NCBI GenBank assembly: GCA_031291845.1
Contig: JARLIH010000196.1
Coordinates: 1 to 64,000, forward strand
Source of the DNA: Isosphaeraceae bacterium
Lineage (GTDB): Bacteria > Planctomycetota > Planctomycetia > Isosphaerales > Isosphaeraceae
Reading direction: 5' to 3'
DNA: 64,000 bases
In this document: piece after piece, positions 10,942 to 59,653 of the stretch
Numbering within the stretch: position 1 is the stretch's first letter
Layout: each line of letters begins with the position of its first letter
The notes under the pieces: model-generated
Databases searched by the model: none
Seen by the model: only the letters and a program-made list of their open reading frames with translations
What the model was told of the DNA's origin: nothing
Program-made: the position numbers and the translations under genes

Positions 10942-11033
10942 CTGGGTGCCAAGCCCACGTCTTCGTGGGCATGCGCCCTACCGCCGACTCGTCCCATAGC
11001 GCACGCCCACGAAGAGGTGGGCTTGGCACCCAG
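10942..11033. repeat. 92-bp compound palindrome
   Basis: The 35-base arms 10942-10976 and 10999-11033 are reverse complements with two mismatches around a 22-base loop. Each arm begins CTGGGTGCCAAGCCCAC and contains its own small hairpin (GCCCAC...GTGGGC), so a folded strand could form a branched, cross-like structure. It lies between convergent genes. Confidence 0.85.
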
Positions 11034-16120: not shown

Positions 16121-16204
16121 AGCGGTGGGTGCCGGGGGCATCGCCCTGGCGGGCTCGACCCCAGCCACGCTTACCAGAGACTACGGGGCCGTTTTCTTTT
16201 CACC

Positions 16205-16241
16205 TGGGAGGGCGAGGCTCCGGCCGAGCCGCGCCCTCCCG
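16205..16241. repeat. GGGAGGGCGAGGCTC palindromic repeat, copy 1
   Basis: TGGGAGGGCGAGGCTC (16205-16220) and the following GAGCCGCGCCCTCCC form a hairpin between convergent genes. The first 16 bases recur exactly at 31411-31426. Elements with this core are, to my knowledge, common in planctomycete genomes. It may also terminate transcription here. Confidence 0.7.
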
Positions 16242-16273
16242 GGAATTCGTCGAGACTGCGGTAGACCTCTCGC

Positions 16274-22579: not shown

Positions 22580-22916
22580 AGGAGGATTGCAAAGTCGCTG
22601 ACCGTCGCGGATTTTGGAGATGTCGTTGGTGGCCATTCTGAGCCCCGAATGGGGCGGCCAGTCCTCGCGATGCGTACTGCCGCCCCCCCGGGGGTCGTGT
22701 TTTCGTTGTGCGGCGGATACCAGCGGTCCGCACCCTTGGCTACCGACAAAACGCCCCGTCCGATGCCGGCAGCGGTCTCCCCCAAACGACGCGCAGGGTG
22801 GCATACCCGGAGTCTGCGACGGGCGAAGTCAACCCGTCCTGGTCGTGCGCCACGCCCGTCGCAGACTCCGGGCGTGCCACCCAGGATTGGTCCAGAATCG
22901 ACTTCGCAATCGTCCT
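22580..22916. repeat. Composite palindromic element with nested insertions
   Basis: The ends AGGAGGATTGCAAAGTCG (22580-22597) and its near reverse complement (22899-22916) are inverted repeats with two mismatches. The left 49 bases and the block 22773-22793 match, in order, the two adjacent blocks of the shorter element at 59546-59653. Relative to that copy this one carries two extra segments: about 144 bases at 22629-22772 and the 87-base palindrome at 22796-22882. When the 87 bases are removed, 18 bases remain between the inner block and the right arm, the same number as in the short copy. Confidence 0.8.
22796..22882. repeat. 87-bp palindromic element, intergenic copy
   Basis: The 30-base arms 22796-22825 and 22853-22882 are reverse complements with two mismatches, around a 27-base loop. 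Core of the arm: CCCGGAGTCTGCGACGGGCG. The frame beginning GTG-GCA-TAC at 22798 is open throughout and encodes AYPESATG at one end and PVADS near the other. The same length, loop size and reading frame occur in the copy inside the FHA gene (48969-49055). Confidence 0.88.
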
Positions 22917-23073
22917 GAGGTGCGTCCGCCTTGGCATCAATGCACAGAGTTGCACCCTCGGACCCGCCGGCGCCTAGATTCAACCCGCGCGCTTCAGTCG
23001 AGGGCTGAGCATCCGTTCGAGCCGTGGAAACCCACCATGGACGACCGGGCCGCCGTGTCGAAACACGACGGGG

Positions 23074-31269: not shown

Positions 31270-31410
31270 GGCGTTCCAGCTCCGCTTGCGGGTTGTGCTG
31301 ATCGACCGAACGGCGTCATGTCCGCGTGAAGACGACCGACGGGACCCCACTCAATGGTGCGGAAAAGCAGTCGCGACGAAGGCTGCTGCGCTGACGAGAA
31401 CACTTTCGCG

Positions 31411-31438
31411 TGGGAGGGCGAGGCTCAGCCGGAGCCTC
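31411..31438. repeat. GGGAGGGCGAGGCTC palindromic repeat, copy 2
   Basis: The 16 bases TGGGAGGGCGAGGCTC at 31411-31426 are identical to 16205-16220. GAGGCTC (31420-31426) pairs with GAGCCTC (31432-31438) around a five-base loop. It lies after the FtsH gene stop and before the kinase gene on the minus strand, where it could terminate ftsH transcription. Confidence 0.7.
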
Positions 31439-31492
31439 ACCCACCGAGGAAACAAAACAACGATCGCCTCGCCCCGGGGCGCGCCATTCTTA

Positions 31493-47902: not shown

Positions 47903-50900
47903 ATGCCCGAAACTGCCTGCCTTCACATCCAGGCCCGCCAATCCGACCCGATCCGGGTCGTGGAACTGCCGGGCGCGTCGGTCCGGATCGGCCGGGCCCC
48001 GTTTTGCGAAGTGCTGCTTCCGGAGCCCGCTCTGGCCGAGGAGGAATGCCAACTGCGCAGGCGCGGCGCGACGTGGCACCTCGTGCCCATGGCCTCCTCG
48101 GGTGCCATGACGATCGAGGGGCGCGTCGTCGACGGCCCTCGCCCTCTTCCGTACGGCGTTGCCTTGCAGGTTGGCGATTTCTCGCTGACCCTTCGGCCGG
48201 GGGGCGCGACTCCCCCCGAATGGAGAACGCCCGCGTCCACCAGCGCAGTCCCTCCGCCCCCCGCGCGGGCCGAGGTGACCCCGGCGAGCAACGCCGCCTC
48301 GCACTATCGCCCCCCCCGCGATCCAGCCGCCCCGCGCATCCGCGCCAGTATCGAGGCGCGCGAGAAGCAGTGGGAAGCGCGCTGGAAGGCAGCCGCGGAG
48401 CGCCTCGGCGCCCGCCCCGGGACGCCGCCCCCGCCTGCTGCGCCGGTCGTTGAGGCGCCCCGCTCGGCCGAACGACTCGCAGGCTGGCGGTCCGTCGATC
48501 TTCCCCGCCGCGAGAGCGCCCGCGCCCCAAAAAGAGTGAACCGGCCGCTCGATCCCGCCACGTTCCCCTCGCTGAGAGCCGTCGAGGTTCCATCCGCCTA
48601 CCCGAGCGTGAGCCGGCCGGCGCCGACCGCGCCTCGACCGTCGGCACGCGTCGAGCCGCCTGTCTCCCGCGCCGCCGAAAAGCTCCTGCTCACCCAGGAA
48701 GACGAGGCCGTCTTCATCCCCCCTTCGGAGTTGGACTGGGCGCAGGCCGAGGCACGAGAACGGAACGACGGCCAAGCGCCGCCGCCGCGGCCGGCACGCG
48801 ACGTCGACTCCCCGGTGGCCGACGATGAAGTCAACCCTCGCGCGAACGCCGAGAACTCGATTGAGGACACGGACGAAGCGCCGTCCGAGCCTTCGCCCGT
48901 GGCCCTCACCGAACAGCTTTGGCAGGGTTTCCACGAGCAATCCCTGGTTGGTGCGCCCGACGAGGACTGGGGGGCATACCCGGAGTCTTCGACGGGCGTG
49001 CGCGAGCTTCCCGACGGGTGCGCCGCGCCCGTCGCAGACTCGGAGCATGTCACCGACTTCGTCCCGACCCGGCAAGAGCGCCCCCGTTCGCGGGCGCTTG
49101 CGGGAATTTTCTCGCTCTGGAGTCGCATGGCGCCCCACCGCCTCGAACCGGAGGCGGAACCGGCGGTCCCGGGCGACGTGCCGGACGAAGACTGCGCCGC
49201 AATCCTCTCTCCCCAGGAGACGGTGGCCGCGGAGCGGCCGGGTGAGGGCGAACCGCGGAACGCACCCTCTCTGCACCCTCAGCCGGACGCTGCGCGTCCG
49301 ACCTCTCCCGAGGGGAGCGGTGAGGAAGAGACCGCCTCGTCCGTGGAGACGGGGCTGTTCGAGCCATCGGACGACGCCGCGGCGCCGGTGAGCGCTAGCG
49401 GTCAAGCGGCCCCGGCGCTCTCCGAAATGCCTCCGGCAGTCACCGAGGAACCGCCCCAGGAGGCGTCAGAGCGAATCGCGCTCCGGCGCCGCTCCGTCTT
49501 CGCCCGCCGTCGCGCGAAGCCCGCGACGCGGACCCCTCGGCTGGGAAGCGTTCGCGTCGTGCCCCGAGAGGAACTGCACGTCGCGGCGGTCGAGCCGAAG
49601 CAGTTCGCGCCCGAAGCCGTCCGGCCCCCGACCAGGAACCCCTCCGCGGAGTCGCCGCGGCAGCGCGAGGCCTGGGTGCCACCCGTACCGCCGCCGGCCG
49701 GCGACCCGGGGCCCTTTGCCGCACGAACCTGGCAGGCCGACACCGGCGCCTGGGCGGAGCTCAGCGCCCCGGTCACCACGAGCACGTGGCACGCCGGCGT
49801 CGGCCCGACGGCACGGCCGAGTGCGGAAGCAGGTCCGAACCACGCCTGGCCCTCCGCGCGAGACATCCTCGCCGCCCGCTCGGCCAGGCAACCCGCGCAG
49901 ACCGCGCCGAAGGTGAACCCTAGGCGGCCGGTACCGACGGTGGCCCGCGAGCCGGAGCACATCGCCGTGCCGCTTTGGCTGGGCTGGCTGCCTCTGACTC
50001 TCGGGGCCCTCGCCGCGTCCGTCGTGGGCGTCGCGCTCGCGTGGACGTGGTCGCTCGACGCGCGCACGGCGGGCGTCGTCGCCCACTTCCTCGCGCACAG
50101 CAAGGCCGGGGCCAAGTTCCCCCTCGAGCCCGAGCAGCTCCCCGCCCCGTCGTGGTGGGGGAGCAGCGGCGGTGCGCTCGCACGCCGCGCCGTGGCGCTG
50201 GCACGGTCGGAAGGTGGGGATCCCGACGAGGTGCGGGGGCTGTTGACGGCGGCCTCTCAGGCCTCGGCCCTGGACACCACCGCCCGCCTCGGCCTGGCCC
50301 GGCTCCCGTTGCGCGGCGAGGACGACGTCCCCGCGCGGAACCGGAGCGCGGGGCTCAGTCGTGACGTCCTCACACTCGCCTGGACGGGCCGGCAGCTCGT
50401 CAAGGCGGGGCAGAAAGAGTCCGCTGTGCGCGCTTACCGTCGGGCGCTCGAGCTGGCCGCGACTGCGGAGATCGACCGGGTTGGCCAACCCTCCTACAAC
50501 GACGATCCGCAGGTCCGGCGCTACACGCTGCCGGGCGAGGAACTGATCGGCCCCGTCGTGCGCGACATGGCGAGCCACAGTCAGTGGACCTTCGAAGAGT
50601 GGTCCGCTGCGCTCCCTTCGTACGCCCTCGTGCCGCTGGTGGCCGCGCGCCAGCTTCGCGAGCATGACCGTACCGATTCCGACGCGCTGCTCGACCGGCT
50701 CGTCGGCGACGAAGGAAGCGGCGCGCCCCCCTCGGGAAGTCTCCCCGCGGTCCACTTCGCCGCTCGGGCCGAAGCGTTCGCCCTCAAGGAGAAATGGGCG
50801 CAAGCGCAGGCCCTGTACCAAGAGGCGATCGACCGCATGCCCGTGGACCTCGTCCGACGCTCGTGGCAGGTCAACCTGGCCGACGTCGCCCTGCGCCAGA

Positions 50901-51076
50901 GTGACGAGCCAGCCCGGCAGAAGGCGCTCGAGGCCGCGAACAACCACGACCCGAATGACCCGATCACCCTCCGGGTGGTCGACCTGCAGAAAGGCTCGGG
51001 CGATCGTGCCCCGCGCACCAACGCCCGGACCCGGGACGAGTCGGTCACGCGGTCGACGCGCTCGCTCGAACGCTGA
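47903..51076 (+). CDS. Giant FHA-domain membrane protein with TPR-like C-terminus and an in-frame palindromic insert
   Basis: A 1057-residue protein. An FHA domain (residues 1-98; VRIGRAPFCEVLLP, with the phosphothreonine-binding Gly-Arg) is followed by about 580 residues rich in Pro, Ala, Arg and acidic amino acids. Then come one transmembrane helix (about 690-712; LGWLPLTLGALAASVVGVAL) and a C-terminal region with TPR-like repeats (SAVRAYRRALELAAT, QALYQEAIDRMPVD). FHA domains bind phosphothreonine peptides, so a Ser/Thr kinase partner is expected in the cytoplasm, with the TPR part in the periplasm. An 87-base palindrome adds 29 codons near residues 356-384 without a frame change. GGGAGGAG precedes the ATG. 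Between ligase and exosortase genes it probably organises the assembly machinery. Confidence 0.85.
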   Translation: MPETACLHIQARQSDPIRVVELPGASVRIGRAPFCEVLLPEPALAEEECQLRRRGATWHLVPMASSGAMTIEGRVVDGPRPLPYGVALQVGDFSLTLRPGGATPPEWRTPASTSAVPPPPARAEVTPASNAASHYRPPRDPAAPRIRASIEAREKQWEARWKAAAERLGARPGTPPPPAAPVVEAPRSAERLAGWRSVDLPRRESARAPKRVNRPLDPATFPSLRAVEVPSAYPSVSRPAPTAPRPSARVEPPVSRAAEKLLLTQEDEAVFIPPSELDWAQAEARERNDGQAPPPRPARDVDSPVADDEVNPRANAENSIEDTDEAPSEPSPVALTEQLWQGFHEQSLVGAPDEDWGAYPESSTGVRELPDGCAAPVADSEHVTDFVPTRQERPRSRALAGIFSLWSRMAPHRLEPEAEPAVPGDVPDEDCAAILSPQETVAAERPGEGEPRNAPSLHPQPDAARPTSPEGSGEEETASSVETGLFEPSDDAAAPVSASGQAAPALSEMPPAVTEEPPQEASERIALRRRSVFARRRAKPATRTPRLGSVRVVPREELHVAAVEPKQFAPEAVRPPTRNPSAESPRQREAWVPPVPPPAGDPGPFAARTWQADTGAWAELSAPVTTSTWHAGVGPTARPSAEAGPNHAWPSARDILAARSARQPAQTAPKVNPRRPVPTVAREPEHIAVPLWLGWLPLTLGALAASVVGVALAWTWSLDARTAGVVAHFLAHSKAGAKFPLEPEQLPAPSWWGSSGGALARRAVALARSEGGDPDEVRGLLTAASQASALDTTARLGLARLPLRGEDDVPARNRSAGLSRDVLTLAWTGRQLVKAGQKESAVRAYRRALELAATAEIDRVGQPSYNDDPQVRRYTLPGEELIGPVVRDMASHSQWTFEEWSAALPSYALVPLVAARQLREHDRTDSDALLDRLVGDEGSGAPPSGSLPAVHFAARAEAFALKEKWAQAQALYQEAIDRMPVDLVRRSWQVNLADVALRQSDEPARQKALEAANNHDPNDPITLRVVDLQKGSGDRAPRTNARTRDESVTRSTRSLER
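48969..49055. repeat. 87-bp palindromic element, copy inside the FHA gene
   Basis: Arms 48969-48998 and 49026-49055 surround a 27-base loop. The left arm differs from the intergenic copy (22796-22825) at two bases and the right arm at five. The element is 29 codons long and open in the reading frame of the FHA protein. Its peptide shares AYPES, TG and PVADS with the frame carried by the intergenic copy. Confidence 0.88.
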
Positions 51077-57970: not shown

Positions 57971-58008
57971 ACGGAACTCCGAGTGCCCACCGCCAAGCAG
58001 AAGGAACG

Positions 58009-58165
58009 AACCGCCAAGGCGCCAAGATCGCCAAGGCAGGAGAGAGAAGAAGAAGAGAACGGATTTAGCATGTTGATTGATATAACATGTCTTTAATTTC
58101 GTTAACTTCAACGTATTCTGTAATTCTCTCTCTCTTGCCTTGGCGATCTTGGCGCCTTGGCGGTT
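58009..58165. repeat. 157-bp hairpin with 39-base arms of GCCAAG repeats
   Basis: Arms 58009-58047 and 58127-58165 are reverse complements with one mismatch. Each arm holds three CGCCAAG units (CGCCAAGG, CGCCAAGAT, CGCCAAGG) followed by a purine GAGAGA run. The 79-base loop is A/T-rich. It lies between two minus-strand genes, next to the stop of the upstream oxidoreductase gene, so it may terminate that transcript. Confidence 0.85.
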
Positions 58166-58180
58166 AGTCCCTCTTCTTTG

Positions 58181-59545: not shown

Positions 59546-59653
59546 CAGGAGGATTGCGAAGTCGCTGACCGTCGCGGGTTTTGGGGTGTCGTTGACGGTG
59601 TCCCCCGAACGACGCGTCGAAGGCCCCCGCAAGACGACTTTGCAATCGTTCTG
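59546..59653. repeat. 108-bp palindromic element, uninterrupted copy
   Basis: Arms 59546-59564 and 59635-59653 (core GATTGCRAAGTCG) are reverse complements with three mismatches in 19. The left part matches 22580-22628 with four or five differences, and 59596-59616 matches 22773-22793 with two. Here those two blocks are separated by a single base. The rest of the 59327-59808 gap shows no gene and should hold the promoters of the divergent oxidoreductase and carbonic anhydrase genes. Confidence 0.75.

Follow-up and report, generated by a model that had tools for sequence, protein, structure and literature searches.

A multicopy REPIN-like palindrome lies in frame in the linker of a planctomycete FHA protein

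Results

The 87-bp Palindrome in the FHA Gene

An 87-bp segment within a gene for an FHA protein of an Isosphaeraceae bacterium is very probably a REPIN-type non-autonomous mobile palindrome, which has spread mostly between genes and of which one copy has been tolerated in frame in a protein linker that has itself collected several palindromes in several species. The gene lies in a stretch of 64,000 nucleotides (contig JARLIH010000196.1, positions 1 to 64,000; hereafter the window), at 47903–51076 on the forward strand. Its 1057 amino acid translation comprises an FHA domain (residues 27–91; 47981–48175, forward strand; Pfam), a long linker, a predicted membrane helix at the hydropathy maximum (about residues 696–714; 49988–50044, forward strand) and TPR motifs near the C-terminus (Pfam). 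The palindrome occupies 48969–49055, which corresponds to 29 codons (about residues 356–385), and it therefore falls within the linker, after the FHA domain and before the membrane helix. This position, the open reading frame through the insert and the existence of a sister copy at 22796–22882 with the same length (87), arms (about 30) and loop (27) had all been proposed in a sequence-only reading of the window, and they are confirmed by the domain coordinates and by measurement of arms and loops.

The arms of the copy in the FHA gene (48970–48998 and 49026–49054; 29–30 nucleotides) are 79% complementary and enclose a loop of 27 nucleotides, and this diverged copy scores 53.9 bits with the family model (nhmmer). 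The intergenic copy has arms of 30 nucleotides (22796–22825 and 22853–22882) that are 93% complementary, again with a loop of 27. The two copies are 93% identical over the left 30 nucleotides and 86% identical over the right 37 nucleotides. The 19-nucleotide core of the arm occurs four times in the window, versus 0.2 expected.

Copies and Architecture of the Element

How widespread is this element? With up to three mismatches allowed, the arm core matches 185 places in the 9.7-Mb genome, versus 12 for the reversed control pattern. We collected the regions around the matching places (found by pattern and by similarity search) and carried out an iterated profile search, which yields at least 99 full or partial copies; the earlier idea of a multicopy palindromic element is thus borne out. 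The consensus is 87 nucleotides long, and among 55 full-length copies 37 have exactly this length and 11 have 88 nucleotides. The boundary of the core (GGGTGGC...GCCACCC) is constant across copies, while the flanks differ and are mutually unrelated.

The full element is predicted to fold into one long hairpin (−89.6 kcal/mol). Each arm is a hairpin too, with an 8-bp stem and a loop of about 10 nucleotides (CACGCCCG-loop-CGGGCGTG) behind a GGTGG tag, so that the layout reads GGGTGG CACGCCCG-loop-CGGGCGTG followed by its mirror. Single-hairpin forms of about 33–37 nucleotides are present as well. The element as a whole thus corresponds to two REP-like units in inverted orientation and is REPIN-like. 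The consensus, the fold of the arms, the single-hairpin forms and the relatives described below all display the short tagged hairpin, often as an inverted dimer, of REPs and REPINs, and the copies are numerous and chiefly extragenic (at least 99, two of them genic). The canonical GTAG or CGTC tag is absent from the element; its tag is GGTGG, nearest to the GTGG variant of GTAG.

The family is restricted to this lineage. Among 20 relatives searched, it matched only one (G011), a member of another genus of the family, and the same-genus genome G001 gave no match. The relatives in G011 are 74 bp long and differ in the loops of the two arms, with both tags and the CACGCCC/GGGCGTG stems retained. 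In the window, Rfam has no match anywhere.

Copies within Genes

We are interested in how often the element has become part of a coding sequence. Genic context was judged by the hexamer coding score on both sides of each copy. Only two of the 99 copies listed are flanked left and right by coding sequence whose frame runs through uninterrupted, namely the copy in the FHA gene and the copy at C440; this count leaves out two weaker candidates (L096 and L122), and copies at contig ends are not judgeable. The remaining copies are overwhelmingly extragenic. Four other candidates (L073, L114, L055 and L111) proved on inspection to lie between genes. Read-through of such inserts is possible, since for any one of the six frames 27–36 of the 37 copies of exact length are open. 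The element is read in one and the same frame in both genes, with A-x-P-E-S-S-x-G-V in each, an agreement with a chance of about one in three.

The sequence-only reading had looked for support to FHA orthologues without the insert and to other genes with the element in the same frame, and both exist. Using the C-terminal part or domain as query, we find orthologues of the FHA protein in 43 of 45 genomes of the family; a comparison of the protein with plasmids gave no match. Among 28 FHA coding regions, the 87-bp model matches the copy in this genome only, and the element is missing from all 27 other orthologues examined. The linker is too diverged among these orthologues for a base-exact empty site.

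A clean empty site is provided by the second genic copy (C440). It forms part of an insert of about 86 codons within an Acyl_transf_3 gene (L140 3649–5130, reverse strand); the insert is in frame, leaves the frame open and is larger than the 87-bp core. In G010 (61% identical), the two halves of the acyltransferase are directly adjacent. Four further relatives (G001, G007, G003 and G012) also have no insert, which makes five with G010, and in a paralogue of the same genome (at C71) no more than 12 bases separate the two matching parts.

Palindromes in the FHA Linker of Several Species

The 87-bp element is one of several palindromes in this linker. A second palindromic repeat family is represented in frame at about 49204–49320, as identified from genomic matches, alignment and a predicted fold of −73.6 kcal/mol. 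It has many matches in the genome, the best with 80–84% identity over 120–134 nucleotides (40 scored of 117 first-look candidates). The sequence-only reading had missed this repeat, as well as the larger inverted-repeat element around the intergenic 87-bp copy (see below).

Three other species also have palindromes in this linker. The FHA linker of G001 contains three palindromic inserts (L054 4868–4969, 5058–5207 and 5588–5755); the second and third have many matches in G001, with up to 88–89% identity, so that at least two of the three are multicopy. In other genera, there is one palindrome in the linker of G022 and at least two in that of G041. By the same criterion, 24 of the 28 FHA coding regions have no palindrome, and codon-shuffled control genes average 0–0.4 such inverted repeats per gene. 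Distant relationships connect some of the linker repeats in our genome, G001 and G041; the term "unrelated" hence applies to the 87-bp family versus the rest and not to every pair. We do not rely on multiple-of-three lengths for the other linker palindromes, since the limits of a palindrome can be moved inwards in steps of two bases.

We lean, if only somewhat, towards regarding the FHA linker as a recurrent capture site, at which several kinds of mobile palindrome became fixed in frame in four or more species. Non-autonomous palindromes would thus continually supply these large planctomycete genomes with new protein sequence.

The palindrome in the G022 linker resembles a repeated GGGAGGGCGAGGCTCCGG-type sequence that occurs at 16198–16245 and 31404–31451 of the window.

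Discussion

Spread and Tolerance of the Element

Very probably, a pair of opposed GGTGG-tagged hairpins has multiplied to about 100 sites in this lineage, nearly always between genes, and one copy entered the linker that separates the FHA domain from the membrane helix. There it would be tolerated because the consensus is 87 nucleotides, or 29 codons, because a GC-rich palindrome is nearly free of stops in all six frames, and because the linker, variable and probably disordered, accepts varied sequence and length. The palindromes that entered this linker in several species would each survive only if the frame stayed open. Frame-breaking inserts were presumably purged by selection, leaving only the in-frame ones visible, and the added peptide itself is likely to be near-neutral.

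The element may have been mobilised in trans by a transposase, without target duplication. There are 19 Y1_Tnp loci in the genome, of which only one, truncated (C426; L128 1121–1400), adjoins a copy. We make no claim of a RAYT link for the 87-bp family on the strength of this single truncated gene. The lack, among the 19 Y1 transposase genes checked, of an intact transposase or RAYT gene tied to the family counts against the REPIN explanation, and so does the search for target site duplications, which in 52 copies gave no excess over shuffled flanks. The missing base-exact empty site in the diverged FHA linker and the size of the acyltransferase insert relative to the core weigh on the same side.

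Two further observations concern these transposase genes. The truncated Y1 gene also adjoins one end of the larger inverted-repeat element. At L163 1201–2100, the same genome has a transposase gene of the RAYT type with classical GTAG-tagged GGGCGGGTTTCAAACCCGCCC repeats on its flanks; these repeats belong to a different REP family.

Alternative Explanations

Could the palindrome have arisen by chance, in a coding region rich in GC? Apart from the high GC content nothing speaks in favour of this, and the roughly 100 homologous copies in the genome, together with the codon-shuffled controls of the FHA gene, which give none, reduce its probability to almost nothing. A more serious alternative arises from the surroundings of the intergenic copy, which is carried by a larger inverted-repeat element at 22580–22917 with terminal repeats (AGGAGGATTGCAAAGTCG / CGACTTCGCAATCGTCCT ends) and with 85% identity over 341 nucleotides to L077 in the genome. 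The 87-bp core might then be only a portion of larger MITEs bounded by CAGGACGATTGCAAAGTCG ends, of which the element at 22580–22917 is one, moved by another (e.g., DDE) transposase, and the FHA copy would be an eroded remnant. At least one CAGGACGATTGCAAAGTCG end is found in 41 of the 99 listed copies, mostly at fixed distances (about 36/44 bp on the left and 17/25 bp on the right), and the insert in the acyltransferase gene likewise exceeds the core. However, the other 58 copies, including the one in the FHA gene, have no such end; the boundary of the core is constant while the flanks are unrelated between copies; the G011 core type sits in other flanks; and the same type of larger element also occurs without the core, at 59546–59653. 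We consider this explanation possible but unlikely.

The two remaining alternatives concern the coding copies. An element specialised for residence inside coding genes, in the manner of the Rickettsia palindromic elements (RPEs), would agree with a length that is a multiple of three, with the in-frame position and with the common element frame of the two genic copies. The genome census nevertheless leads us to reject it, since only two of the 99 listed copies are genic and the same frame would occur twice by chance in about one case out of three; such a specialisation is highly improbable. The precedent of the RPEs, invoked in the sequence-only reading, therefore holds for the in-frame peptide insert and fails for the element as a class. 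Selection of the inserted peptide for a function, e.g., the length of the FHA linker or binding, might be suspected from the accumulation of palindromes in this linker in four species. Yet the inserted peptides differ between species, with no conservation of the peptide, and 24 of the 28 orthologues have no detected palindrome, so that we find it quite improbable. A REPIN-type palindrome that was tolerated in the linker is the reading that we prefer.

Relation to Known Repeats

Intragenic REP and MITE inserts are of a kind already known, well beyond Rickettsia, as is clear from published REPs in genes, in-frame inserts of the RU/ERIC type and RPEs. Published work on REPs describes REPs in planctomycetes, REPs inside genes of several species and, for O. 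terrae, a GTGG variant of the REP tag (PMC3733652). The GTAG- and CGTC-tagged REPs and REPINs treated there resemble our element in being short tagged hairpins, with inverted dimers tens of bp apart, mainly intergenic and with occasional in-frame genic copies. In contrast to them, our element has a GGTGG tag, an 8-bp stem with a loop of about 10 nucleotides and no intact RAYT gene tied to it. In the enterobacteria, intragenic in-frame inserts of the MITE-like RU/ERIC repeats are reported (PMC2759123); these repeats, too, lie between genes, have open frames and at times become fused to genes, whereas the repeats studied here belong to another phylum and differ in sequence. RPEs share with our element the short palindromic form and the in-frame peptide insert, but they are very often genic: according to a review, nearly half of them lie in ORFs (PMC10969869), compared with two of 99 listed copies here.

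What is new is the repeated invasion of one orthologous linker. Recurrent use of a single protein linker does not appear in the available portions of the REP/REPIN literature (PMC3733652), nor does repeated invasion of one linker in those of the RU/ERIC report (PMC2759123), and our limited literature search turned up no description of different palindromes being captured repeatedly by one orthologous linker. The FHA gene thereby provides an example from the planctomycetes, accompanied by a genome census, of how mobile palindromes turn into protein sequence. It also amounts to a natural experiment, in which one orthologous linker can be followed through 28 genomes, four of them struck by differing repeats. 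Are disordered linkers merely permissive, or are they shaped by palindrome inserts? Comparisons of this kind allow the question to be asked.

Further long palindromes are present elsewhere in the window. One, at 10942–11033, has 35-nucleotide arms that are 94% complementary (CTGGGTGCCAAGCCCACG...), and another, at 58002–58172, is built of GCCAAGG-type repeats with 46-nucleotide arms that are 93% complementary.
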